A stretch of DNA of 64,000 nucleotides from Desulfosoma sp. GTDB taxonomy: Bacteria; Desulfobacterota; Syntrophobacteria; Syntrophobacterales; DSM-9756. The stretch is taken from NCBI GenBank assembly GCA_037481875.1, contig JBBFKY010000001.1, positions 310,001-374,000 of the forward strand. The letters are read 5' to 3'. Under the pieces are notes generated by a model, which saw only the letters and a list, made by a program, of their open reading frames with translations, did no database searches and had not been told where the DNA came from. Of this stretch, positions 1,310-14,213 are shown in pieces; position 1 is the first letter of the stretch, and the number at the start of each line of letters is the position of its first letter. A program made the position numbers and the translations under genes.

Positions 1310-1759
1310 ATGGACCGACCGTTTCGCATCCTGGTAACCGACCGAAACCGTCATGTGCGCGCCTTTCTTCGAAGGGAACTCACACAAGACGGATACGAGG
1401 TCATGGAAGCCGGAGACTGTCGGGAAGTGCAAAAAATTCTACGTTCTCCCGTGATCGTGGACCTTTTGGTTTTTGATCCGGACATTGCTTGGGAGAGCCA
1501 TCGCCTAATCTTGCGGAATCTTCGAGAGCGATATCCATCAATGCGCGTGGTGCTTCACAGCCTTTGGGACGATGCGTGCCTGGTCCAGCACGTGCACGCT
1601 GCGGTGTCCAAAACGGGATCCCTTAAGGAATTGAAAGAGGTGGTGTCTCGCCTGCTCGCACCTGAGGTTTTGGAAGACCCAACGAAGCCAAACTCCTGCG
1701 AAGGCTCATGGCCTCAGTCAAGGGACAAGGAAGGGGAACGGAATGATCACGGCGGATGA
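1310..1759 (+). CDS. Degenerate receiver-domain protein
   Basis: This single-domain CheY-like receiver of 149 residues has an altered acidic pocket: the usual DD pair is TDRNRH, with only Asp11. The likely phosphoacceptor is Asp56 in LLVFDPD and the conserved lysine is Lys101 in AAVSKTG. The C-terminal 30 residues after the fold look disordered. No DNA-binding output domain is present. The start ATG has only a weak upstream purine stretch (GGAAAAGGA). The 3' end overlaps the next kinase by 17 bases, which suggests translational coupling. It is the first gene downstream of the sigma-54 promoter. Whether it can be phosphorylated is uncertain because of the altered pocket. Confidence 0.75.
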   Translation: MDRPFRILVTDRNRHVRAFLRRELTQDGYEVMEAGDCREVQKILRSPVIVDLLVFDPDIAWESHRLILRNLRERYPSMRVVLHSLWDDACLVQHVHAAVSKTGSLKELKEVVSRLLAPEVLEDPTKPNSCEGSWPQSRDKEGERNDHGG

Positions 1760-3524
1760 AAGGTACTACAGCAGCCTGCGCCGTAACATCATGGCCATTA
1801 TCATCACCGTGTCCCTGATGCCTCTGCTGGCCATGATGGCCATTGCCGGCTACCAGTTTCACACGGCTTATCGGCACAAGGTGGTGGACCATCTGGCCGC
1901 TCTTGTGGAACGTCACGCGGTGCATATAGACACCTTTCTTAACGAAAAACTTGCGGATATCAGCTCCTTGGCGGCCATTAAACCTTTAGAAAAGCTTCAG
2001 GACCCTCAGGAGATGGAAAACATTCTGGCCATGTTTCAAGAAAAGCACAGGGGGGTCTTTGTGGATTTGGGCCTTGTGGATGAACAAGGGACGCAGGTGG
2101 CGTACGCCGGCCCGTTTCGGTTGATTCGTGCCCAATACAGGGACGCCTCATGGTTTCGAGAAGCCATGAACCAGCCCTTTACGATCAGCGATGTTTTCCT
2201 TGGACTGCGTGGGCTGCCGCACTTCATTGTGGCCGTGCGCATTGACAAGGGTGGGCATCAATGGGTTCTGCGATCCACCATCGATTTTGTCGCTTTTAAC
2301 CGGCTTGTGGAAGAATTGCGGGTCGGTAAAACAGGCCAGGCTTTCATCATCAATACCGAAGGGCAGTTTCAAACTCAGCCCCACACCAAGCTTGGATTGA
2401 ACCCAAAAGAGCTTCTACGTGTTGTTCGCGGGGAGCATTCGAGCAAGATGGAAATTTATCCATCGGCAGTGGAAGGACTCAATATCACGGAGAGTTTCGG
2501 CGCCGTTGCCAGAGATCCCTACGCATCAGGCGCAGCCTACTGGTTTGAATATACCGTCCCTGAAAGCCAAAGTCGGTTTCTTGTCTTCTATCAAAGTCTT
2601 AAAGGGGGTCGCTGGTACCTTTTTTATGTCCAGGAAACACAGGACGCCTTCCATGATCTCTACAAGGCCCGGGCACTCACCCTAGGGGTTCTGGCCCTCA
2701 GTGCGTTGGGGGTGGCTTTCACGGCATGGGCTCTGTCACAACGCGTGGTTCAGCGCATTATTCAGGTGGATCGTGAAAAGGAGATGATGAACGAACAGGT
2801 CATCGAGGCGGGAAAGCTGGCATCCATTGGGGAACTGGCGGCAGGGATCGCTCATGAAATCAATAATCCGGTGGCCATCATGGTGGAAGAAGCCGGATGG
2901 ATTCAAGATCTGCTGCAGGACATGGAGCGGGGAGAATCTTTGGACGTGGAGGAAGTGCGCCGTTCTCTGGCCCAAATACGGACCCAGGGGGCTCGATGCA
3001 AAGAGATTACCCACAAACTCCTAAGCTTCGCGCGTCGCACTGATCCGACCGTGCAGCAGGTTCAGATCAATAAGCTTGTGCAGGAAGTGGTGGCATTGGT
3101 GGAACAGAGGGCTCGATACGCCGGTGTGAACGTTCGAACGCATTTGACGGACAACCTTCCTTGGGTGGCCATGTCACCTTCCGAAATGCAACAGGTGCTT
3201 CTGAACCTCATTAACAATGCTTTGGACGCCATGGAAAAGACCGGAGGAACGCTGGATATCACCACACGTTACGACAACGGTCGAGTGATCGTGGACGTGG
3301 CGGACACAGGGGAAGGGATTCCTCAGGCAAACCTGCAAAGGATCTTTGACCCTTTTTTTACTACCAAACCCGTAGGCAAGGGAACCGGCCTCGGGCTCTC
3401 CATCTGTTATGGCATTGTGCGAAAGATGGGAGGTGACATCACGGTCAACAGCGCCGTCGGTGTGGGAACCACGTTTCACATTCACTTGCCTGCGGGTGAC
3501 GGGGTTGTGGAAAGGCCTTTCTGA
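1743..3524 (+). CDS. Cache-type sensor histidine kinase
   Basis: This is a membrane sensor kinase of 593 residues. TM1 lies at about residues 15-37. It is followed by an extracytoplasmic region of roughly 270 residues resembling a double-Cache sensor (GKTGQAFIINTEGQ is a typical Cache signature) and TM2 at about 310-333. The HisKA domain has its phosphoacceptor at His371 (GIAHEINNP). The ATPase domain has NLINNALDAM, DTGEGIP and GKGTGLGLSI. A Shine-Dalgarno-like GGAAGGGGAACGG precedes the ATG. It probably senses a small extracellular ligand and phosphorylates some or all of the receiver proteins encoded directly downstream. The ligand cannot be read from sequence. Confidence 0.92.
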   Translation: MITADERYYSSLRRNIMAIIITVSLMPLLAMMAIAGYQFHTAYRHKVVDHLAALVERHAVHIDTFLNEKLADISSLAAIKPLEKLQDPQEMENILAMFQEKHRGVFVDLGLVDEQGTQVAYAGPFRLIRAQYRDASWFREAMNQPFTISDVFLGLRGLPHFIVAVRIDKGGHQWVLRSTIDFVAFNRLVEELRVGKTGQAFIINTEGQFQTQPHTKLGLNPKELLRVVRGEHSSKMEIYPSAVEGLNITESFGAVARDPYASGAAYWFEYTVPESQSRFLVFYQSLKGGRWYLFYVQETQDAFHDLYKARALTLGVLALSALGVAFTAWALSQRVVQRIIQVDREKEMMNEQVIEAGKLASIGELAAGIAHEINNPVAIMVEEAGWIQDLLQDMERGESLDVEEVRRSLAQIRTQGARCKEITHKLLSFARRTDPTVQQVQINKLVQEVVALVEQRARYAGVNVRTHLTDNLPWVAMSPSEMQQVLLNLINNALDAMEKTGGTLDITTRYDNGRVIVDVADTGEGIPQANLQRIFDPFFTTKPVGKGTGLGLSICYGIVRKMGGDITVNSAVGVGTTFHIHLPAGDGVVERPF

Positions 3525-3556
3525 GGAATGGAAACTTTAAAGAAGGAGGAATGTGC

Positions 3557-3991
3557 ATGAATCGGACGGTCGTAATGCTCGTGGACGACGAAGTACCGTT
3601 TGTGGACACCATGACCCGGCGGCTGAGCAAGCGGGGACTTGAAATCCTTCAAGCTTACAGCGGCTTCGAGGCCCTGGAAAGCCTTGCCAAGAACCAAAAA
3701 GTGGACGTGGTCGTCCTGGACGTCAAGATGCCCGGCATGGATGGCATTGAAACCCTGAGGGAAATCAAAAAGGCTCATCCCTTGGTGGAAGTCATCATGC
3801 TCACAGGCCATGCCACGGTGGAAACGGCCATTGAAGGGATGCGGCTCGGCGCCTTTGACTACCTCATGAAGCCCTGTGACATCGAGGAGTTGGTGGGCAA
3901 AGTTCAGGAAGCCAAGGAAAAGAAAGCTCGCCATGAAGACAAGATCATGGAAGCCAAGGCAAAGGCGATTGCTCTTCGTCGTGGTGACTAA
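3557..3991 (+). CDS. Receiver-only response regulator 1
   Basis: This CheY-like receiver of 144 residues has a complete active site: Asp10-Asp11 acid pair (VDDE), phosphoacceptor Asp55 (VVLDVKMPGMDG), Thr83 and Lys105 (YLMKPCD). A basic, helical tail of about 25 residues follows (KEKKARHEDKIMEAKAK). No output domain is present. An upstream in-frame ATG at 3551 sits one base after the ribosome site, so the ATG at 3557 is chosen, seven bases after GGAGG (3545-3549). It is the first of three consecutive receivers in the same orientation and probably acts through protein contacts or as a phosphorelay intermediate. Confidence 0.9.
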   Translation: MNRTVVMLVDDEVPFVDTMTRRLSKRGLEILQAYSGFEALESLAKNQKVDVVVLDVKMPGMDGIETLREIKKAHPLVEVIMLTGHATVETAIEGMRLGAFDYLMKPCDIEELVGKVQEAKEKKARHEDKIMEAKAKAIALRRGD

Positions 3992-4006: not shown

Positions 4007-4402
4007 ATGACCAGCTCAGATACCTCCAGACCGCATGAGCTACGCGTACTCTTGGTGGACGACGAAAGAGGCTTTGTCGATGTGCTGGCCCGGCGCCTCA
4101 GTCGACGTGCCATGCGTGTGACCACGGCCTGCAGTGGCGCCGAGGGCATTCAAAAGCTTCGACATGAGAAATTCGATGTAGCGGTCCTGGATCTCAAGAT
4201 GGAGGACATGGATGGAATCGATGTTCTGAAAATTTTCAAGAAAATCGATCCCTGTATGTCGGTGATCATGTTGACGGGTCATGGCTCGGAACAGGCGGCT
4301 CGAGAAGGCTTGACCCACGGGGCTTTTGACTATCTCACCAAGCCCTGTGAATTGGAGGAATTGGTCGAAAAGATTCATCGAGCTGTGGAAGCGGTGAGGT
4401 GA
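4007..4402 (+). CDS. Receiver-only response regulator 2
   Basis: This 131-residue receiver has Asp18-Asp19, phosphoacceptor Asp62 (VLDLKMEDMDG) and Lys112 (YLTKPCE). The fold ends almost at the C-terminus and lacks the basic tail of its neighbours. It starts 15 bases after the previous stop and ends 4 bases before the next GTG start, so the three genes are surely co-transcribed. It differs most from the other two in the loop after the phosphoacceptor, consistent with a separate partner. Confidence 0.9.
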   Translation: MTSSDTSRPHELRVLLVDDERGFVDVLARRLSRRAMRVTTACSGAEGIQKLRHEKFDVAVLDLKMEDMDGIDVLKIFKKIDPCMSVIMLTGHGSEQAAREGLTHGAFDYLTKPCELEELVEKIHRAVEAVR

Positions 4403-4406
4403 TTTC

Positions 4407-4817
4407 GTGGAAACCATTCGTGTCTTGTTGGTGGACGATGAGGTGGAGTTTCTCGATACCTTGCTTAAGCGCCTGCGAAAACGGCAGGTGGAAACGGCGG
4501 GGGTTCAAAGCGGGGAGGACGCCCTGCGATACCTGGAAAACAACCCGGTGGACGTGGTGGTCCTTGATGTCAAAATGCCGGGCATGGACGGCATTCAAAC
4601 CTTAAAGGCCATCAAAGAAAATCATCCCCTTGTGGAGGTGATCATGCTCACGGGGCATGCCAACGTGGAAGTGGCCATTCAGGGTATGGAACTGGGCGCC
4701 TTTGACTACCTCATGAAACCCATGGATATCGATGAGCTCCTCTACAAGGTCCAAGATGCCTGCAAGAAGAAAAGACTTCACGAAAAAAGAATGCTGAAAA
4801 GAAGGGGGGTGGAATAA
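4407..4817 (+). CDS. Receiver-only response regulator 3
   Basis: This 136-residue receiver has Asp10-Asp11, phosphoacceptor Asp54 (VVLDVKMPGMDG) and Lys104 (YLMKPMD), followed by a short basic tail (CKKKRLHEKRMLKRR). The start is GTG at 4407, preceded by GAGGTGATTTC. Its active-site motifs are nearly identical to those of regulator 1 (3557-3991), so the pair probably arose by duplication. Confidence 0.9.
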   Translation: METIRVLLVDDEVEFLDTLLKRLRKRQVETAGVQSGEDALRYLENNPVDVVVLDVKMPGMDGIQTLKAIKENHPLVEVIMLTGHANVEVAIQGMELGAFDYLMKPMDIDELLYKVQDACKKKRLHEKRMLKRRGVE

Positions 4818-4902
4818 GAGCGAAAGCGAGGAACAGACGAACAGCGAGAGAGATTCGGGTCGGTCAAGGACATTACGAAAACTCTAGATCGAGGTTGTGG
4901 CG

Positions 4903-6201
4903 ATGAGAAAGATGCGGAAATTTTATGATATGTTGCTGAGTGCGTCCAAGGCGCATGCGCGATGGGAGTATGAAACTTCCCTTAACATTGTGCGAAGCCG
5001 AAAGCGACTTGTGATTCTCGGCTTGTTGGCGCTTCCGGCCCTTCTTTTTGCCGTGGCCTTTGCCGCGGATCCTTCTGGTGGCGGACTTCCCGGCATGTTA
5101 GGAGGCAAGGAAGCCTACACGCCGGCTTTTTACGACACCAGAATCTTTCTAATTTCCATCCTCGTCGGTTTGTGTGCCGGGCTTATCACAGGTTGTATCG
5201 GAGCCGGTGGTGGCTTCATCATCACACCGGCCCTCATGAGTGCTGGAATCAAGGGTATTCTGGCGGTGGGGACGGACCTCTTTCACATCTTTGCCAAGGC
5301 CATTATGGGCACGACCGTGCACAAGAAACTGGGCAACGTGTCCGTGCCTTTGGCCGTCTGGTTCCTAGTAGGTTCCGGGGTCGGCGTCACGGGTGGCGGC
5401 TTTATCAACAGAACCCTTTACGAGATCAATCCACTGCTCAGTGATACCTTCATAAGCGTCGTCTATGTGATCTTGCTGGGATTCCTAGGGATTTATGCGC
5501 TCACCGATTTTCTCAAGCTGCGAAAAGCCGGTGTGGATGTGGGGGCGCATCACGGCGAGAGTCCTCACGGCGCTGAAGCCACCTCAGGCAAAGTCGGTCT
5601 GCCCGCGCGCCTGCAAGCCACGAATATTCCCCCGTACATTCGGTTTGATGAAGACCTGGTGCCTGGAGGTAAAAGGATTCCTGCCATTTTCGTTATCATT
5701 TCCGGTGCCCTGGTGGGATTTGTGGCCGCCATCATGGGTGTGGGCGGCGGTTTTCTCACATTTCCAATCTTCGTTTACGTTCTTGGAGTCTCCTCTTTTA
5801 CCACGGTGGGCACGGACATTTTGCAGATCATTTTTACGGGAGCTTACGCCGCCATTTTTCAGTACGCCATCTATGGCTTCATTTTCTACACACTGGCCAT
5901 GGGCATGCTCCTAGGTTCTCTTTTGGGCGTGCAACTGGGAGCTTTGACCACCAAAGTGGTCAAGGGAATCTACATTCGAGGCTTCTACGCCGTCGCCATT
6001 ATGGCCGGCTTCGTCAACCGTCTGTTTGCTCTGCCCAAAAAGCTGGCGGAGATGAAATACATTACCCTGGCTCCTGAAACCGGAAAAATTTTGACCGTCG
6101 TGGGCAACTGGGCCTTTTTCATCGTTGTGAGCATCTTCGCGCTGTGGATCATCGGCACCTTTGTGACCCGCATTGGAGCCCTTCGTGGAACGGAGGCATA
6201 A
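4903..6201 (+). CDS. TauE/SafE-family anion permease
   Basis: This is an integral membrane protein of 432 residues of the sulfite exporter TauE/SafE superfamily, whose members export or import organosulfur compounds and sulfur oxyanions. It has an N-terminal cytoplasmic leader and one extra hydrophobic segment near residues 35-55. Two homologous halves follow, with the repeated signatures GCIGAGGGFIITPAL and AIMGVGGGFLTFPIF, each followed by VGTD. A hydrophilic His-rich loop (GAHHGESPHG) joins the halves. The family usually has about 250-270 residues, so this is a long form. ATG 4903 is chosen over GTG 4897 because GAGG at 4891-4894 is correctly spaced. Substrate is not determined; a sulfur oxyanion is an inference from the family. 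Confidence 0.87.
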   Translation: MRKMRKFYDMLLSASKAHARWEYETSLNIVRSRKRLVILGLLALPALLFAVAFAADPSGGGLPGMLGGKEAYTPAFYDTRIFLISILVGLCAGLITGCIGAGGGFIITPALMSAGIKGILAVGTDLFHIFAKAIMGTTVHKKLGNVSVPLAVWFLVGSGVGVTGGGFINRTLYEINPLLSDTFISVVYVILLGFLGIYALTDFLKLRKAGVDVGAHHGESPHGAEATSGKVGLPARLQATNIPPYIRFDEDLVPGGKRIPAIFVIISGALVGFVAAIMGVGGGFLTFPIFVYVLGVSSFTTVGTDILQIIFTGAYAAIFQYAIYGFIFYTLAMGMLLGSLLGVQLGALTTKVVKGIYIRGFYAVAIMAGFVNRLFALPKKLAEMKYITLAPETGKILTVVGNWAFFIVVSIFALWIIGTFVTRIGALRGTEA

Positions 6202-6205
6202 GATC

Positions 6206-6910
6206 ATGATTACGAACAAGAAAATGTTCACTCTTGGGATTGTTTTGACGGTTGGCTTCTTTGTTGTGCTGTGGATCATGTTCCAGCCGTACTTCGGTGG
6301 AGAGAACGCTTTCCACGCCGCGGACCGTTTGTTCAACACCATTTCCAAGGGATCGTCCTATTACATTCCGGGCTTACAGGAAAAAGCCAAGGCTTTGGAA
6401 GCAACGACCGTGGACGTGAAGCTTTCGGTCAGCCCTGAAAAAGTTCGAGACAATGTAGCCAAACTCTTGATGACCAACGGCATCATGGTGGCCAAGGAAG
6501 GAGAACAATTAAGGGTCCAGGGTTCACTCGGAGCCATTCTCTCGGCGGCCATCAAGGACAGTGACAGCATGTACCACAACCGGGGCGAAGATCTGAGCGG
6601 TCGTTATGGCATTCCCGAAAAAGAAGCCCTTTTTGCGTGGTGGAACGCCCTCAAAGCCATGGATAAGGCTTTAAAGGAGCAAAAGAAATTTAAAGAGTCC
6701 AAGGAAGTTCATGAAGTCATCGCTCGCGGTGTCGAAGTGGGCTACAATTATTACGGCATTGCTCCCGAAAAGGCGACTGCTCGAGCCGGCATCTTGACCT
6801 TTTCCCTGGTTTTTTACGTCATTTACACCATGTGGTGGGGGTTTGCCATCTTGTATCTGTGTGAAGGTCTAGGGCTTGAAATGAAAAAAGGTGTGAAGAA
6901 AGAAGTCTAA
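6206..6910 (+). CDS. Unknown two-TM protein partnered with TauE-like permease
   Basis: No family is recognised. The 234-residue product has TM1 at about residues 8-27, an extracytoplasmic segment of about 165 residues that is rich in Lys and Glu, and TM2 at about 196-220, followed by a short basic tail (MKKGVKKEV). The start at 6206 has GGAGG nine bases upstream; a longer frame from 6173 would overlap the permease without its own ribosome site. The gene begins 4 bases after the permease stop and is followed by a strong terminator at 6920-6950. It therefore closes the transcription unit, and an accessory role with the permease is inferred from position only. Confidence 0.8.
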   Translation: MITNKKMFTLGIVLTVGFFVVLWIMFQPYFGGENAFHAADRLFNTISKGSSYYIPGLQEKAKALEATTVDVKLSVSPEKVRDNVAKLLMTNGIMVAKEGEQLRVQGSLGAILSAAIKDSDSMYHNRGEDLSGRYGIPEKEALFAWWNALKAMDKALKEQKKFKESKEVHEVIARGVEVGYNYYGIAPEKATARAGILTFSLVFYVIYTMWWGFAILYLCEGLGLEMKKGVKKEV

Positions 6911-6919
6911 GATTCTTGA

Positions 6920-6956
6920 GCCTTTCCGACGGGTTCGCCGTCGGAAAGGCTCCGTC
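6920..6956 (+). terminator. Rho-independent terminator
   Basis: An 11-bp perfect stem (GCCTTTCCGAC / GTCGGAAAGGC) with a short GGGTTCGCC-type loop occupies 6920-6950 and is followed by a T-rich stretch. It ends the unit containing the permease and the two-TM protein. Confidence 0.85.
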
Positions 6957-7045: not shown

Positions 7046-9697
7046 GTGGCGAGCCGTTTCACAAGAAATCTCCAAAGATGGACTCAGAAGGCTCTTGCCG
7101 GTTTAGGACTCTCCTTATCGAAAGATCCCTTGCCCGAGGAAAGTCTGGAAGATCTCCGATTGGCTTTTCAGCGCAGATATCATCACTTTAAGCTACTTCT
7201 GAACGCCAACAATCGCGCTTTGGAAATCATGACCGAAATGGAAGAGATGCTTCAAGGCACTCGCCCTTTCGGCATGACCTTCGTTCGGTCTCGATGCACC
7301 CAAGTTTCCACCAATGTTTTTCAAATCATTCAGCATTTGGACGCTTTGGCTCCAGAAAAATACAAGCAGCTCTACGACGCCTTTCGAACCATTCAGAAAC
7401 AGATCAACACCTACATTTACACCCCCGGTTCATCCGGTTCTGGACCTTTAGTGTTGTCCATGGAGGAGGTGAGCAAGGAAACCGGGGACTGGGTGGGATC
7501 CAAGATGGCAAACCTTGGAGAGATCAAACGTCAACTCGGGCTGACTACGCCCGAAGGATTTGCCATCACCACATTCGGGACGGCGCGTTTTTTTCAAGAA
7601 AACCAGCTTCAGGAAGAAATCGACCGGCGTCTTCAGGCGGTGCAGGCGGATCGCTTGGATGAGCTCTTTGCTTTAAGCGCTCAGATTCAAAATCTGGTCA
7701 TTGCAGCACCTGTGCCCGAGGAATTACGGGAGGCCGTTGCTGCGCAGGTGTCCCATCTGAAGGCAAAGCTGGGAGGAAGGCTTCGTTTTGCGGTTAGAAG
7801 CAGCTCCCTGGCGGAAGACCTTCCGGGAATGTCCTTTGCCGGACAATTTCGTTCCGAATTAAACGTGGGCGAAGAAAACATTCTGCAGGCTTTCAAGGAA
7901 GTGGTGGCGAGCAAATACGGGGTTGCCGCCATGACCTATCGGCTCCGTCGAGGTTTGAGGGACGAAGATGTGTCCATGGCCGTGGGTTGCCTTGTGATGG
8001 TGGACGCCGCGGCCAGCGGGGTCCTGTACACTCGAAATCCATTGAATATTCGAGAAGATGTCCTGGTCATCAACGGCGTGTGGGGACTCCCAAAGTCCGT
8101 GGTGGACGGCAGTGTGAGCCCTGACGTCTGGGTCGTGTCCCGCAAGGAACCTCATGGAGTGCTTGAAAGACATGTGGGGGAGAAAACGGTCAAATACGTC
8201 TGCTACCCGGATGAAGGCGTTTGTCGGCTGGAAACGGCAGGGGACGAGAGCCGGCAGCCGTGCTTAACCGATGCGCAGGTGGCGGCTTTGGCTCGGGTTG
8301 CCTTGCGTATCGAGGCCCACTACGGAGCTCCACAGGATGTGGAATGGGCTGTGGATGCTTCCGGGCATGTGGTGATCCTGCAGACGAGACCGTTTTCAGC
8401 GCATCAGGCGACGGAGACCAGCGGGTTGCAGGCCATCGACGCTGGCCGAGATGGACTTAATGTCTTGGCACAAGGCGGTGTGACGGCTTCTTCTGGAATC
8501 GCCTCGGGCCCGGTGCACGTGGTGCGTCGTGATGCAGACGCGCTTCAATGTCCACAGGGAGCCGTCCTGGTGGTGGCGCAGGCGCTGCCCCGATGGGCGC
8601 CGCTTTTGGGGCGTGTGGCGGCGGTGCTGAGTGAACAGGGAAGTGTCGCCGGGCACTTGGCCAATGTGGCCAGAGAATTTCGTGTGCCTGCCGTCTTCGG
8701 CCTTTCCGGTATTATGGAATCACTGGCTTCGGGTCAAGTGGTCACGGTGGATGCGGATCAAAGACGTGTGTATGAAGGGGATGTGCCTATCGAGGTATCG
8801 GAAACCGCCTCTCAGCCGGCTCTCATGAAAGGCACACCCGTCTACGAGGTCTTGGAAGGCGTGATCCGCTGGATCATCCCCCTTAACCTGCTGGATCCGG
8901 ATTCTCCCTCTTTTTCCCCAAAGCAGTGCACCACCTTTCATGACATCACCCGGTTCTGCCATGAAAAGGCCGTAGAGGAGATGTTTCGGTTCGGTTCGGA
9001 GCATCGTTTTCCTCAGAAATCGGCCAAGCAGCTCATGTGCCGTGTTCCCATGCAGTTCTGGATCATCAATTTGGATGATGGGTTCACAGAGGATGTTGAA
9101 GGGCCTTATGTGACATTGGATCAGATCGTGTCCCTACCGATGCTTGCCCTATGGCATGGGATGACGGCCGTTCCATGGGAAGGGCCGCCCCCTGTGGACA
9201 CCAAGGGGTTCATGTCTATTCTCATGGAAGCCACCACCAACCCGGGTCTGGATCCTTCTGTGGCTTCCCCTTACTCGGTGCGAAATTATTTCATGATTTC
9301 CAGAAACTTCTGTAGTCTTCAATCACGTTTCGGGTTTCACTTTTCCACGTTGGAAGCTCTGGTGGACGAACGCACATCGCAAAACTACGTGAGCTTTCAA
9401 TTCAAGGGTGGAGCCGCCGACCGCACGCGACGGGTGCTCAGGGCTCGGTTTGTTGCGGATTTGCTGGAGTCCTTTGATTTTAGGTGCGAAGTCAGGGAGG
9501 ATGCCGCCTTCGCACGGTTGGAAGGGCGTCCGCAAGACGTTATGTTGGATCGACTACGGACTTTGGGTTATCTCATTATTCACACGCGCCAATTAGACAT
9601 GGTCATGCATAATGCGGATTCCGTGCATCGGTACCGGACCAAGATGCTTCAAGAGATTGAAAGTGTTCGAAAGGCACAAGGCTTGACCTGTGCGTAG
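7046..9697 (+). CDS. PEP synthase/pyruvate phosphate dikinase-like protein with novel C-terminus
   Basis: This is an 883-residue multidomain protein. Residues 1-140 are a helical region of unknown type. About 145-470 is a PPDK-type ATP-grasp nucleotide-binding domain (AVRSSSLAEDLPGMSFAGQF; DVEWAVDASGHVVILQTRP). About 475-600 is the swivelling phosphohistidine domain, with the catalytic histidine retained as His537 in GSVAGHLANVAREF. The PEP/pyruvate-binding TIM barrel of true PpsA or PPDK is missing. Residues 600-883 form a domain I do not recognise. The start is GTG, 5 bases after AAGGAGG. It can plausibly transfer phosphate from ATP to His537, but the acceptor is unknown. Rifampin phosphotransferase uses the same two catalytic domains, but in a different arrangement. 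Confidence 0.82.
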   Translation: MASRFTRNLQRWTQKALAGLGLSLSKDPLPEESLEDLRLAFQRRYHHFKLLLNANNRALEIMTEMEEMLQGTRPFGMTFVRSRCTQVSTNVFQIIQHLDALAPEKYKQLYDAFRTIQKQINTYIYTPGSSGSGPLVLSMEEVSKETGDWVGSKMANLGEIKRQLGLTTPEGFAITTFGTARFFQENQLQEEIDRRLQAVQADRLDELFALSAQIQNLVIAAPVPEELREAVAAQVSHLKAKLGGRLRFAVRSSSLAEDLPGMSFAGQFRSELNVGEENILQAFKEVVASKYGVAAMTYRLRRGLRDEDVSMAVGCLVMVDAAASGVLYTRNPLNIREDVLVINGVWGLPKSVVDGSVSPDVWVVSRKEPHGVLERHVGEKTVKYVCYPDEGVCRLETAGDESRQPCLTDAQVAALARVALRIEAHYGAPQDVEWAVDASGHVVILQTRPFSAHQATETSGLQAIDAGRDGLNVLAQGGVTASSGIASGPVHVVRRDADALQCPQGAVLVVAQALPRWAPLLGRVAAVLSEQGSVAGHLANVAREFRVPAVFGLSGIMESLASGQVVTVDADQRRVYEGDVPIEVSETASQPALMKGTPVYEVLEGVIRWIIPLNLLDPDSPSFSPKQCTTFHDITRFCHEKAVEEMFRFGSEHRFPQKSAKQLMCRVPMQFWIINLDDGFTEDVEGPYVTLDQIVSLPMLALWHGMTAVPWEGPPPVDTKGFMSILMEATTNPGLDPSVASPYSVRNYFMISRNFCSLQSRFGFHFSTLEALVDERTSQNYVSFQFKGGAADRTRRVLRARFVADLLESFDFRCEVREDAAFARLEGRPQDVMLDRLRTLGYLIIHTRQLDMVMHNADSVHRYRTKMLQEIESVRKAQGLTCA

Positions 9698-9707
9698 GAG
9701 TTTATCC

Positions 9708-11042
9708 ATGGGTCCCATATCATTTCAAACTGATTTGACGACGGTGTCTTTCAGTCGTCGAAAACTCATGCACCGAAACCGAGCCCTATCCGTGCTTTTG
9801 GGCTTAAGCGAAGTGCTATCCCAATCCAAAGGCCTCAACGAACTCCTGACCCAAGCGTTGGACTACGTTCTGGAACACACAGCTTTTGATGCCGGCCGTG
9901 TCTACCTCATGGAACCGGATCGACAAAGCCTTCGACTGGCTGCCTTTCGAGGCATGGATGTCCAGGGGCTGGAGCGGGTGAACTTGGAGGAAGGGTTTAC
10001 GGGTCGAGCGGCCAAATCTTGTGCTTTTATCGCCCAGTCTGTAGATGCCTTAGGAGATGCCAAAAGGGCCGAGCTTTTGCTTTCTAAAGGGATTCACACG
10101 GTGGTCTGTGTTCCCTTTGTTGTTTTGGATCGCGTGGAAGGGGTCATGAACCTAGCGGCCAAGAGCCCCATGCAGTTGCATCAAGACGAGGTGGATCTTT
10201 TGATGATGATCGGGCATCTCATCGGGGTTGCGGCCATTCATGCGGAAACGGAAGAGATTTTACGGGAAATCGTTGAAGAACTTCAGCAGCGAAACGAGAC
10301 GATTCAGCTTTTTGTTTCCACCGTCGGCCATGATCTGAAAGGGCCCGCTGTGGCTGCCTACGGATTTGCCAAAAGACTCCATGAACGCTACGCGAAGCTG
10401 CTGGATGAGCGTGGAATGCTCTATTGTGAGCAGATACTTAAAGCCACCAGACAGATTGCATGCATGGTGGATGAACTCAATAATTTCTTGCGCACTCGAG
10501 AAATGGCCGTTCGTCTGCAGCCCTTGCCCGTGGCTTCCCTTTGGGACAGCCTGCGGCAGGAATTTGCCTCGGAGCTTGCCAAGAAATCTGTGCACTGGTC
10601 GGAACATTCTCGGGTTACTGAAGTGACGGCGGATGAGGTCCTGGTGCTTCGCGCTTTAAGAAACCTTGTCCAGAACGCCCTCAGCCATGCAGGGCCCGGA
10701 TTGCGAAGTCTTCAGGTGGGCTGTGAGGAGAGAGAAGGGTTCTATGTCTTTTGGGTGGCGGACGACGGGGAGGGCATTCCTTTTGAACACCAAAGGAAGC
10801 TGTTTGAACCCTTTGCCAGGCTCAAGCCTTCAAAGGGTGTGGAGGGTTCAGGGCTTGGCCTGGCCATTGTGCGGGAAGTGGCGCACCGGCATGGCGGAGA
10901 AGCCTGGGTGCGATCCGAGCCTGGAAAAGGGGCCGTTTTTTTCTTTAGTCTTGCCAAGGTAGCTGAGATGGCTTGCGGATGCGTGCCACCGCACAATCAT
11001 GCGGCGGAAGCTCCGCGACACGACACGAAAGACATCTCATGA
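9708..11042 (+). CDS. GAF-domain sensor histidine kinase
   Basis: This is a soluble kinase of 444 residues. A GAF domain occupies about residues 35-180 (FDAGRVYLMEPDRQSLRLAA; GVMNLAAKSP). The HisKA region has its phosphoacceptor His in FVSTVGHDLKGP, and the ATPase domain has LVQNALSHAGPG, VADDGEGIP and GSGLGLAIVREVA. No transmembrane segment is present, so it senses a cytoplasmic signal. ATG 9708 is preferred over GTG 9690 because TAGGAG lies seven bases upstream. It follows the dikinase-like gene by 10 bases and is probably co-transcribed with it. A receiver partner is not adjacent; the receivers at 3.5-4.8 kb are candidates. Confidence 0.88.
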   Translation: MGPISFQTDLTTVSFSRRKLMHRNRALSVLLGLSEVLSQSKGLNELLTQALDYVLEHTAFDAGRVYLMEPDRQSLRLAAFRGMDVQGLERVNLEEGFTGRAAKSCAFIAQSVDALGDAKRAELLLSKGIHTVVCVPFVVLDRVEGVMNLAAKSPMQLHQDEVDLLMMIGHLIGVAAIHAETEEILREIVEELQQRNETIQLFVSTVGHDLKGPAVAAYGFAKRLHERYAKLLDERGMLYCEQILKATRQIACMVDELNNFLRTREMAVRLQPLPVASLWDSLRQEFASELAKKSVHWSEHSRVTEVTADEVLVLRALRNLVQNALSHAGPGLRSLQVGCEEREGFYVFWVADDGEGIPFEHQRKLFEPFARLKPSKGVEGSGLGLAIVREVAHRHGGEAWVRSEPGKGAVFFFSLAKVAEMACGCVPPHNHAAEAPRHDTKDIS

Positions 11043-11489: not shown

Positions 11490-14213
11490 ATGGGACTGTT
11501 CAATCTCGACCGAATGTTCAATCCGAAGTCCATCGCTGTCATCGGTGCCAGTGAAAGGCCGGAAAGCGTAGGGGCTGCCGTCATGAGAAACCTCGTGGAA
11601 GGCGGTTTTCCAGGCCCCATTTATCCCATCAACCCTCGACATTCCGCCGTTTGGGGACTGAAAGCCTATGCGCGTGTGGAAGAATCCCCAGCTCCTGTGG
11701 ACCTGGTCGTGGTGGCCACGCCCATTGAGACCGTTCCAGGAATTATTAGGAGCTGCGGCGCCAAAGGTGTTGCCGGTGCGGTGATTCTTTCGGCGGGTGG
11801 CCGGGAGGTGGGGGAAAAGGGGCGACGGTTGGAGGAGGAGATTGCACGCGAGGCCGCCGCGAACAAGGTTCGCCTCATCGGTCCCAACTGTCTTGGGTTT
11901 ATTTGCCCCGGAGCGAAACTCAACGCCAGCTTTGCCGCCCATATGCCCAAACCCGGCCGGTTGGCCTTTATCTCTCAAAGCGGCGCTCTGTGCACGGCCA
12001 TTTTGGATCTTTCCCTGCAAGAAGGTATCGGCTTCAGCCATTTTGTCAGTATCGGCTCCATGGTGGATGTGGATTTTGCCGACCTCATCGATTACTTGGG
12101 CAACGAATTTCGTGTGACCAGCATTCTTCTTTATGTGGAAAGCATTGCCAATCTGCGGAAGTTCATGAGCGCCGCACGGGCGGTTTCCCGCGTCAAGCCC
12201 ATTGTCGTGCTGAAATCGGGAAAAAGCCCAGCCGGAGCTCGGGCCGCCTCCTCCCATACCGGAGCCATGGCCGGAGAAGATGCCTTGTATGATGCGGCTT
12301 TTCGTCGAGCGGGTGTGCTTCGAGTGAACTCCATCGGCGAACTCTTCGATTGTGCCGAACTCCTGGCGAAACAACCTCGACCTGAAGGGCCTCGGTTGGC
12401 CGTCATCACCAATGCCGGCGGTCCCGGCGTTATGGCGGCGGATGCTCTGTCGGAATACGGCCTGGAGCCGGCACCTTTGAGCGATGAGACCTTGGCGGCT
12501 TTGAATGCCGTGCTGCCGCCGTTTTGGAGTCGCAATAACCCCGTGGACATTCTCGGGGACGCCTCTCCGGAAAGATATGCCAAAACCCTTCAGATCTGCG
12601 TGGAATCCAGGGATATCGATGGGGTTCTTGTGATTCTTACACCCCAGGCTATGACGGATCCCACAGGAGTAGCCCGTCAGGTGGCCGCTATGGCTTCCAA
12701 ACGGTCATGTCCCATCCTTGCTTCATGGATGGGAGGTGTTCATGTGGAGGAAGGACGCCGGATTCTCAATCAAGCCGGCATTCCTACGTACGCGACTCCG
12801 GAACAGGCCATCGGCGCTTTCATGGAGTTGTACCAGTATGCCGTGAATCAAAAGATGCTCAAAGAAATTCCCAAGAGGTTTCGGGAAGATCTCACCTTTG
12901 ATGAGGAAAGAGCCAAAAGAATTCTCCAAAAAGGTCTTACCAGATCTCACGGCGTCCTCACCGAAGTGGAATCCAAGGATCTCCTGGAAGCCTACGGCAT
13001 TCCCACAACGGTCACCCGCCTTGCTGAAAACGAAGATCAAGCGGCGCTTCTAGCCCGTGACATGGGATTTCCTGTGGTGCTCAAGATCTGTTCGCCGGAC
13101 ATTCTGCACAAAACGGAAGCAGGAGGCATTCATCTGGATCTGCAAAACGAGGAGCAAGTGCGTACCGCCTACCGAAGCATTTTGGAAAAAGCCAGGGCCT
13201 ATAAGCCGGACGCAGACATTCATGGGGTATCGGTGCAACCCATGGTGCGCAGCGTCCAGGGATCGACGGGCGTCGAACTTATCTTAGGGGCCAAAAAAGA
13301 TAATCACTTCGGTCCCGTGATCCTTTTCGGCATGGGCGGTATCTTGGCTGAATTGCTCAAAGACCGTTCCTTGGGGCTTCCTCCGCTGAATCGAGCTTTG
13401 GCTCATCGGCTCATGGAAGACACCAAAGTTTACAAGGTGCTTCGAGGGTACCGGAATCTGCCCCCGGCCAACATGGCGGCTTTGGAGGAGCTCCTCATTC
13501 GGCTCAGTCAGTTGGTGACGGATTTTCCCGAAATTGTCGAGCTGGATATGAACCCCGTCATTTTGCAGCAAGGAAGGCCTTGGGCGGTGGATGCTCGAGT
13601 TATCGTGCAGCCCAGCTCGGTGGCGTCTCCCATGCATCTTATCATCAGCCCGTACCCGGCGCGTTATGAAAAACATGCCGTCACTTCGGCAGGTCTGCCC
13701 GTTTTTATTCGGCCCATCAAGCCAGAAGATGCGCCGCTTCTGGTGGATCTCTTTCATGTTCTTTCTCCCACAAGTATTTACTTTCGCTTCTTCAGCCCCC
13801 TCAAAGAACTCACCGAAGACATGCTGGCTCGATTTACCCAAATCGATTACGATCGTGAAATTGCGTTGGTAGCCGTGGAATCTCCTGGAACGGATCAGGA
13901 AAAACTGCTTGGTGTGGCTCGAGTCATCAGTGATCCCGACGGCAAAAAAGCCGAATTTGCCGTGTTGGTGGGGGATCCTTGGCAAGGGAAAGGCATCGGG
14001 GCCTTACTTTTGGAAAATTGCCTGCATATCGCCAAGGAACGGGGGATCGAAACCGTATGGGGCACCGTGCTCAGAGAAAATACGCAGATGCTGGCTTTGG
14101 GCCGAAAACTGGGGTTTGCGATCTGTCGTGTTCCTGAAAGCACCGATTGTGAATTGACCATCGATTTGCGCGCTGTCACTTTTGATGAAAACGGGCGAAT
14201 TCAGCCCTTTTAG
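11490..14213 (+). CDS. Acyl-CoA ligase (NDP-forming)/GNAT acetyltransferase fusion, Pat type
   Basis: This 907-residue protein has the architecture of protein lysine acetyltransferase Pat/PatZ. A CoA-binding Rossmann domain starts near residue 10 (FNPKSIAVIGASERPESVG). Succinyl-CoA-ligase-like domains follow, carrying the phospho-histidine loop ASSHTGAMAGED. An ATP-grasp domain covers about 480-700 (VLKICSPDILHKTEAGGIHL). A C-terminal GNAT domain starts at about residue 735 (acetyl-CoA loop DPWQGKGIGALLLE). In many Pat enzymes the ligase half is only regulatory; here the His loop and ATP-grasp motifs look intact, so real acetyl-CoA synthetase activity is possible. The ATG follows GGGAGTGTCTCC. 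No acetyl-CoA synthetase target gene is adjacent, and the preceding kinase locus may share regulation. Confidence 0.88.
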   Translation: MGLFNLDRMFNPKSIAVIGASERPESVGAAVMRNLVEGGFPGPIYPINPRHSAVWGLKAYARVEESPAPVDLVVVATPIETVPGIIRSCGAKGVAGAVILSAGGREVGEKGRRLEEEIAREAAANKVRLIGPNCLGFICPGAKLNASFAAHMPKPGRLAFISQSGALCTAILDLSLQEGIGFSHFVSIGSMVDVDFADLIDYLGNEFRVTSILLYVESIANLRKFMSAARAVSRVKPIVVLKSGKSPAGARAASSHTGAMAGEDALYDAAFRRAGVLRVNSIGELFDCAELLAKQPRPEGPRLAVITNAGGPGVMAADALSEYGLEPAPLSDETLAALNAVLPPFWSRNNPVDILGDASPERYAKTLQICVESRDIDGVLVILTPQAMTDPTGVARQVAAMASKRSCPILASWMGGVHVEEGRRILNQAGIPTYATPEQAIGAFMELYQYAVNQKMLKEIPKRFREDLTFDEERAKRILQKGLTRSHGVLTEVESKDLLEAYGIPTTVTRLAENEDQAALLARDMGFPVVLKICSPDILHKTEAGGIHLDLQNEEQVRTAYRSILEKARAYKPDADIHGVSVQPMVRSVQGSTGVELILGAKKDNHFGPVILFGMGGILAELLKDRSLGLPPLNRALAHRLMEDTKVYKVLRGYRNLPPANMAALEELLIRLSQLVTDFPEIVELDMNPVILQQGRPWAVDARVIVQPSSVASPMHLIISPYPARYEKHAVTSAGLPVFIRPIKPEDAPLLVDLFHVLSPTSIYFRFFSPLKELTEDMLARFTQIDYDREIALVAVESPGTDQEKLLGVARVISDPDGKKAEFAVLVGDPWQGKGIGALLLENCLHIAKERGIETVWGTVLRENTQMLALGRKLGFAICRVPESTDCELTIDLRAVTFDENGRIQPF

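Follow-up and report, generated by a model that had tools for sequence, protein, structure and literature searches.

A barrel-less dikinase family of Desulfobacterota with a previously undescribed C-terminal domain and recurrent two-component and TauE/SafE gene neighbours

Introduction

Among the dikinases, glucan, water dikinase (GWD) shows the reverse domain order and carries carbohydrate-binding modules. Dikinases with a swivelling histidine that phosphorylate small-molecule acceptors also exist (PMC12167813, PMC4844700). In Desulfovibrio vulgaris, a dikinase gene is part of a nitrate cluster, which begins with genes for TauE (DVU0251), a hypothetical protein (DVU0250) and PtxB (DVU0249) and continues with a histidine kinase (HK; DVU0248), a receiver (REC; DVU0247), the dikinase (DVU0246) and a dual-specificity phosphatase (DVU0245; Korte et al., 2014, PMC4001038). 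Insertion mutants in DVU0246, DVU0247, DVU0250 and DVU0251 grew equally with and without 100 mM nitrate, and a leaky thiosulfate transporter was suggested by these authors (PMC4001038). The phosphatase mutant (DVU0245) was inhibited by nitrate and had low fitness in D. vulgaris, opposite to the high fitness found for its homologue in strain G20 (PMC4001038). The literature searched contained nothing further on DVU0246 and its neighbours beyond that study. Nitrate resistance of Desulfovibrio matters for souring control.

Here, we describe a dikinase-like gene in a 64,000-nucleotide stretch of Desulfosoma sp. DNA (the window, G000:C1:310001-374000), which belongs to a host genome of 3.4 Mb. The closest named relative in a genome contig scan was an uncultured Desulfosoma MAG (80%).

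Domain architecture and catalytic half

The gene, here called DIK for barrel-less dikinase, is closely preceded by a Shine-Dalgarno-like AGGAGG, and its stop codon ends at 9697. Its features, in window coordinates, are:

7046..9697, + strand: DIK, barrel-less dikinase, 883 aa, GTG start at 7046
7133..7435, + strand: N-terminal helical domain (residues ~30-130)
7490..8416, + strand: PPDK_N ATP-grasp domain (residues 149-457; Pfam E 3e-95)
8552..8761, + strand: swivelling phosphohistidine domain, PEP-utilizers mobile domain (residues 503-572; Pfam E 2e-16)
8654-8656, + strand: His537 codon
8807..9673, + strand: previously undescribed C-terminal domain (residues ~588-876)

At E ≤ 1, Pfam recognised nothing beyond PPDK_N and the mobile domain, which are separated by only ~45 residues. 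In PDB alignments with PEP synthase and rifampin phosphotransferase (RPH), the catalytic residues K153, R251, E433, Q446, R448 and His537 fell on positions that are conserved in these enzymes, and His537 coincided with the catalytic histidine of PEP synthase. All six residues were intact in 105 of the 112 family members. The closest structural match of the ATP-grasp part in Foldseek was HpeI (9goj, E 8e-21), with PEP synthase and RPH also recovered. The initial annotation of this gene had considered the ATP-grasp and phosphohistidine domains, including His537, to be intact, in agreement with the Pfam domains, the aligned histidine and the retention of His537 in 108 of the 112 members. DIK has the features of the dikinase superfamily, namely the PPDK_N ATP-grasp domain and a mobile domain with the catalytic histidine; it is a member of that superfamily by the sequence and structure features tested, and it is not a PEP synthase, PPDK or RPH. 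ATP-dependent phosphorylation of His537, with release of AMP, would be expected by analogy.

Absence of the PEP barrel

The absence of the PEP/pyruvate TIM barrel, also claimed in the initial annotation, was borne out by two comparisons with positive controls. Pfam PEP-utilizers_C (PF02896) had no match in residues 573-883 of DIK, and the real PPDK of the host genome matched this family at E 2.3e-84. When 70 C-terminal domains were aligned with PEP synthase barrels using hhalign, the probability was 0.2% (E 0.39), vs. 98.7% (E 2e-16) for the host PPDK barrel against the same PEP synthase profile. No profile search placed residues 600-883 in the TIM barrel family, and a barrel hidden within residues 588-883 was rejected on the same grounds. 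The NCBIfam scores of DIK were 337.6 bits for PEP synthase (TIGR01418) and 239.7 bits for RPH, below the cut-offs of 739.75 (equivalog) and 999, respectively. It is extremely unlikely that DIK is an ordinary PEP synthase whose barrel diverged beyond recognition: curated PEP synthase models are the best matches of its first 600 residues, but the profile comparison excluded a barrel with a working control, the host genome already has a real PPDK with a barrel, and the predicted C-terminal fold is not a (beta/alpha)8 series.

C-terminal and N-terminal domains

The region that had been annotated as an unrecognised C-terminal domain had no sequence match in Pfam, NCBIfam, PHROGs or the PDB, and a PDB profile search returned nothing credible. 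Its most conserved positions (101 to 112 members compared) were the motif C628-x3-H632-D633-x5-H639-E640, together with F623, G705, H765, N780, G788-G789, R799, D819 and D851. Among 101 members, F623, H632, H639, G705, H765, N780, G788, G789, R799, D819 and D851 were invariant, and C628, D633 and E640 were each kept in all but one. The C-x3-H-D-x5-H-E motif is predicted to lie on a helix, and we can only guess from the sequence that its Cys-His-Asp-His residues may form a metal or acceptor site.

The comparison with known folds proposed in the initial annotation was made with an AlphaFold model of the C-terminal domain (pLDDT 72, pTM 0.68), for which the alignment was shallow (7 sequences, drawn from the related loci retrieved) and the first 80 residues were of low confidence. 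The model was mixed alpha/beta, with strand pairs, C-terminal helices and no beta/alpha alternation. It had no clear PDB match: Foldseek found none at E ≤ 0.001, and the best VIA-align match (Z 6.4 over 89 residues) was at the level of unrelated matches. A missing PDB match is no proof that the fold is new. As modelling of the whole protein gave a poor result (pLDDT 64), we make no claim on how the DIK domains are arranged.

The N-terminal region, which had likewise been reported as unrecognised, gave no Pfam match, and against the PDB only generic helical bundles and no credible sequence relative were found. Three long helices were predicted, with no invariant histidine. An assignment as an HPt domain was rejected since the conserved histidine is absent.

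Distribution of the family

Using a profile of the C-terminal domain, the DIK family was found in 146 of 395 sampled Desulfobacterota genomes, often with several and up to six scored copies. PPDK-like relatives, counting any match, were present in 53 of 59 close genomes, and a contig scan, which reaches close relatives only, gave matches solely in Desulfobacterota. No relatives with the DIK C-terminal domain were found on plasmids, and none on viral contigs with the paralogue as query. A defence role was considered and rejected, as PADLOC gave no match. In many sulfate reducers, with up to 14 matches per genome, these genes are annotated only as 'PEP/pyruvate-binding'.

The host genome carries a second DIK, 38% identical, ~10 kb upstream and just 5' of the window (L003:10700-13312; G000:C1:306700-309312), which adjoins a sigma-54 activator gene and its own TauE, HK and REC genes. 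Three more barrel-less PPDK_N proteins of the same genome (L173:571-2907, L174:2-3865 and L175:1085-4066) are unrelated to the DIK C-terminal domain, one of them with a phosphohistidine domain near its C-terminus. In one DIK clade (L046:7156-10338, L047, L048 and L049:741-3824), the C-terminus carries an addition with weak similarity to lectins, and neither REC nor HK genes were seen nearby.

ATP-grasp residues (K153, E433, Q446) have been lost from seven members, four of which also have Arg in place of His537. All seven keep C628, H632, H639, H765, N780 and D819, and one has Glu for D633. The seven fall into two separate clades, with each copy in tandem with an intact DIK. The degenerate copies of a Desulfovibrio-like clade of four genomes showed identities of 47-58% in the catalytic core, 76-84% in the C-terminal and 67-83% in the N-terminal domain; for the intact partners from the same four genomes the values were 70-80%, 70-79% and 60-76%, respectively. 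The second degenerate clade showed the same trend more weakly. Conservation of the outer domains while the kinase core drifts indicates that these domains serve a purpose independent of phosphotransfer, which may be the binding of a partner or ligand. The C-terminal domain is a strongly conserved module that outlasts kinase loss. Separately, proteins with the DIK C-terminal domain and no kinase were observed in two further genomes (L176:6399-7532; L177, 10217-11314, minus strand). They share an operon with REC, DIK and HK genes, and the L176 protein has lost H632.

Gene neighbourhood

The genes and elements around DIK in the window are:

1310..1759, + strand: degenerate receiver-like protein, 149 aa, kept in orthologous operons
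1743..3524, + strand: histidine kinase with dCache sensor domain
3551..3991, + strand: single-domain response regulator
4007..4402, + strand: single-domain response regulator
4407..4817, + strand: single-domain response regulator
4897..6201, + strand: TauE/SafE family permease (PF01925, E 1e-34), present in 17 of the loci examined
6173..6910, + strand: 245-aa protein with no Pfam family and a hydrophobic stretch near each end
6918..6952, + strand: terminator-like hairpin (15 bp stem; consensus match only) between the 245-aa gene and DIK
9690..11042, + strand: histidine kinase with GAF domain, 8-base overlap at the DIK stop codon

The receiver-like protein heads the operon and lacks the usual phospho-acceptor context. 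The 245-aa protein is conserved beside TauE in 17 loci. Judged from its sequence, the hairpin may cause DIK to be transcribed separately from the TauE gene. Orthologous operons have the order receiver-like protein, dCache histidine kinase, two to three single-domain response regulators, TauE/SafE permease, 245-aa protein and DIK, and are often extended after DIK by genes for the histidine kinase with GAF domain and for an acyl-CoA synthetase/GNAT protein. In the window the latter (11490-14213), which had initially been called a Pat-type acetyltransferase, is a fusion of an ADP-forming acyl-CoA synthetase with a GNAT domain according to Pfam. Only a subset of the genomes has this gene near DIK, and it is improbable as the key partner.

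Neighbourhoods of homologues were counted with profiles for 66 non-redundant members flanked by 4 kb at either end, and the counts are uncorrected for shared ancestry. The recurrent partners were single-domain RECs (within 4 kb in 57 members and within 400 bp in 37), histidine kinases (within 4 kb in 50) and TauE (within 4 kb in 42, and absent there in about a third). There are five TauE matches in the whole host genome, and ~0.02 would be expected per neighbourhood-sized stretch. Other neighbours differed from clade to clade: one has universal stress proteins and PF09608, another a sigma-54 activator. Since the arrangement varies in this way, the link of DIK with its neighbours is not one inherited block. 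The domain reading of the initial annotation stands, and its suggestion of a different substrate is probably right, but its picture was incomplete in that DIK belongs to a large Desulfobacterota family with signalling and transport neighbours.

Phosphatase domains were fused to DIK in three loci. Dual-specificity phosphatases either fused to or directly adjoining DIK were observed at L043:9013-12789, L044, L045, L055:7411-8544 and L057:5370-6410, and one DIK-linked phosphatase has a cysteine-rich tail resembling CxxCxxCC.

Proposed function

Because the PEP-making part has been exchanged for an undescribed domain and the neighbours are signalling and TauE genes, it is probable that DIK acts as a phosphotransfer switch in signalling or transport and not as an enzyme of sugar synthesis. 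With moderate confidence, we propose an ATP-to-His~P dikinase that is tied to two-component signalling and has a non-PEP acceptor linked to TauE-type transport. In this mechanism, His537 would receive a phosphate that the ATP-grasp domain takes from ATP, and would be swung by its mobile domain to the C-terminal domain, which, in place of the PEP barrel, would hold or bind a different acceptor. The HK and the single-domain response regulators, which lack a DNA-binding output, would probably set DIK activity, and as a result a TauE/SafE-type oxyanion transporter, or its membrane partner, would be controlled or would work together with DIK. Loading of His537 would follow from membership of the superfamily; gene order and the mutants of a related clade suggest the connection with signalling and transport; and the identity of the acceptor, the dependence on response regulators and the direction of control are as we infer them. 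A more detailed version is tentative: HK and REC would switch DIK, which would phosphorylate the TauE-type transporter or its partner, with the pseudo-dikinases and the proteins of N- and C-terminal domains as regulatory subunits. If true, a dikinase as direct two-component output would represent a new class of two-component effector.

A possible but rather unlikely alternative is a metabolic dikinase of the RPH or HpeHI kind, with the C-terminal domain as a small-molecule site and the two-component genes regulating only expression or uptake. The structural proximity of the ATP-grasp part to HpeI, PEP synthase and RPH, the known small-molecule dikinases with a swivelling histidine and the invariant polar cluster, which could be an active site for a small molecule, are consistent with this. 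However, the constant neighbours were single-domain REC and HK and never a metabolic enzyme, and the 76-84% C-terminal identity of degenerate copies despite the drift of their cores would be odd for a mere substrate site. It is improbable that DIK is instead a phosphorelay donor, passing the phosphate of His537 to the aspartate of the neighbouring receivers and so supplying the two-component pathway with phosphate that originates from ATP. These have the canonical Asp and Lys residues and no output domain, and over half of the members counted have a REC within 400 bp, but most loci encode histidine kinases already able to serve them, phosphorylation of a receiver by a dikinase has no known precedent, and the C-terminal domain would be left unexplained.

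A role like that of plant GWD, in which DIK would phosphorylate a polysaccharide and the dual-specificity phosphatase would reverse this, is very unlikely. The fused or adjacent phosphatases of some members and the lectin-like additions of one clade (E 1.7e-5 to 1e-4, under the Pfam cut-off) point in this direction, but these sub-threshold matches concern four members only, the DIK of the window has neither a lectin-like addition nor a phosphatase domain, and glucan genes were never constant neighbours.

Comparison with known systems

Several Desulfovibrio-like genomes contain operons with TauE, a 202-aa protein, a phosphonate-binding protein, HK, REC, DIK and dual-specificity phosphatase, which is the order of the nitrate cluster; Pfam confirmed the phosphonate-binding, HK and phosphatase genes. 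At least nine genomes with this gene order have a dikinase with the DIK C-terminal domain, and the catalytic residues of the dikinase in these operons are complete (six of six). As operons of identical order carry DIKs with the same C-terminal domain, DVU0246 and Dde_0604 (PMC4001038) resemble DIK, and DVU0246 would belong to the family judging by gene order rather than by its own sequence. The DVU0246-type clade is separate from the DIK of the window, and its operons have a phosphonate-binding-type protein and a phosphatase, whereas that of the window lacks both. Since this clade is only 31-34% identical to the DIK of the window, the nitrate phenotype is transferred with care. The insertions may be polar, and a phenotype common to the mutants does not establish that the transporter is acted on directly. 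Because DVU0245 and its homologue in G20 gave opposite results, antagonism between kinase and phosphatase is not established. The DIK family bears directly on why loss of the dikinase, response regulator or TauE permease confers nitrate resistance on Desulfovibrio.

PEP synthase shares with DIK an ATP-grasp domain followed by a phosphohistidine domain with the same catalytic residues (~30% identity over residues 136-590). DIK differs in lacking the PEP/pyruvate barrel, in its C-terminal domain, in the added N-terminal helical domain and in its two-component and TauE gene context. RPH and HpeHI also combine ATP-grasp with a swivelling histidine and have a non-pyruvate acceptor, but the acceptor domain lies between ATP-grasp and histidine in RPH and on the separate subunit HpeH in HpeHI, unlike in DIK, and the DIK C-terminal domain matched no PDB sequence, those of RPH and HpeHI included. 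GWD is likewise barrel-less, and a DSP-type phosphatase is paired with some DIK members as well, but no glucan link was seen at DIK loci. The superfamily is known, and as far as the literature was searched, the architecture and context of DIK are undescribed. Genes of many sulfate reducers can now be assigned to a family with a testable mechanism.
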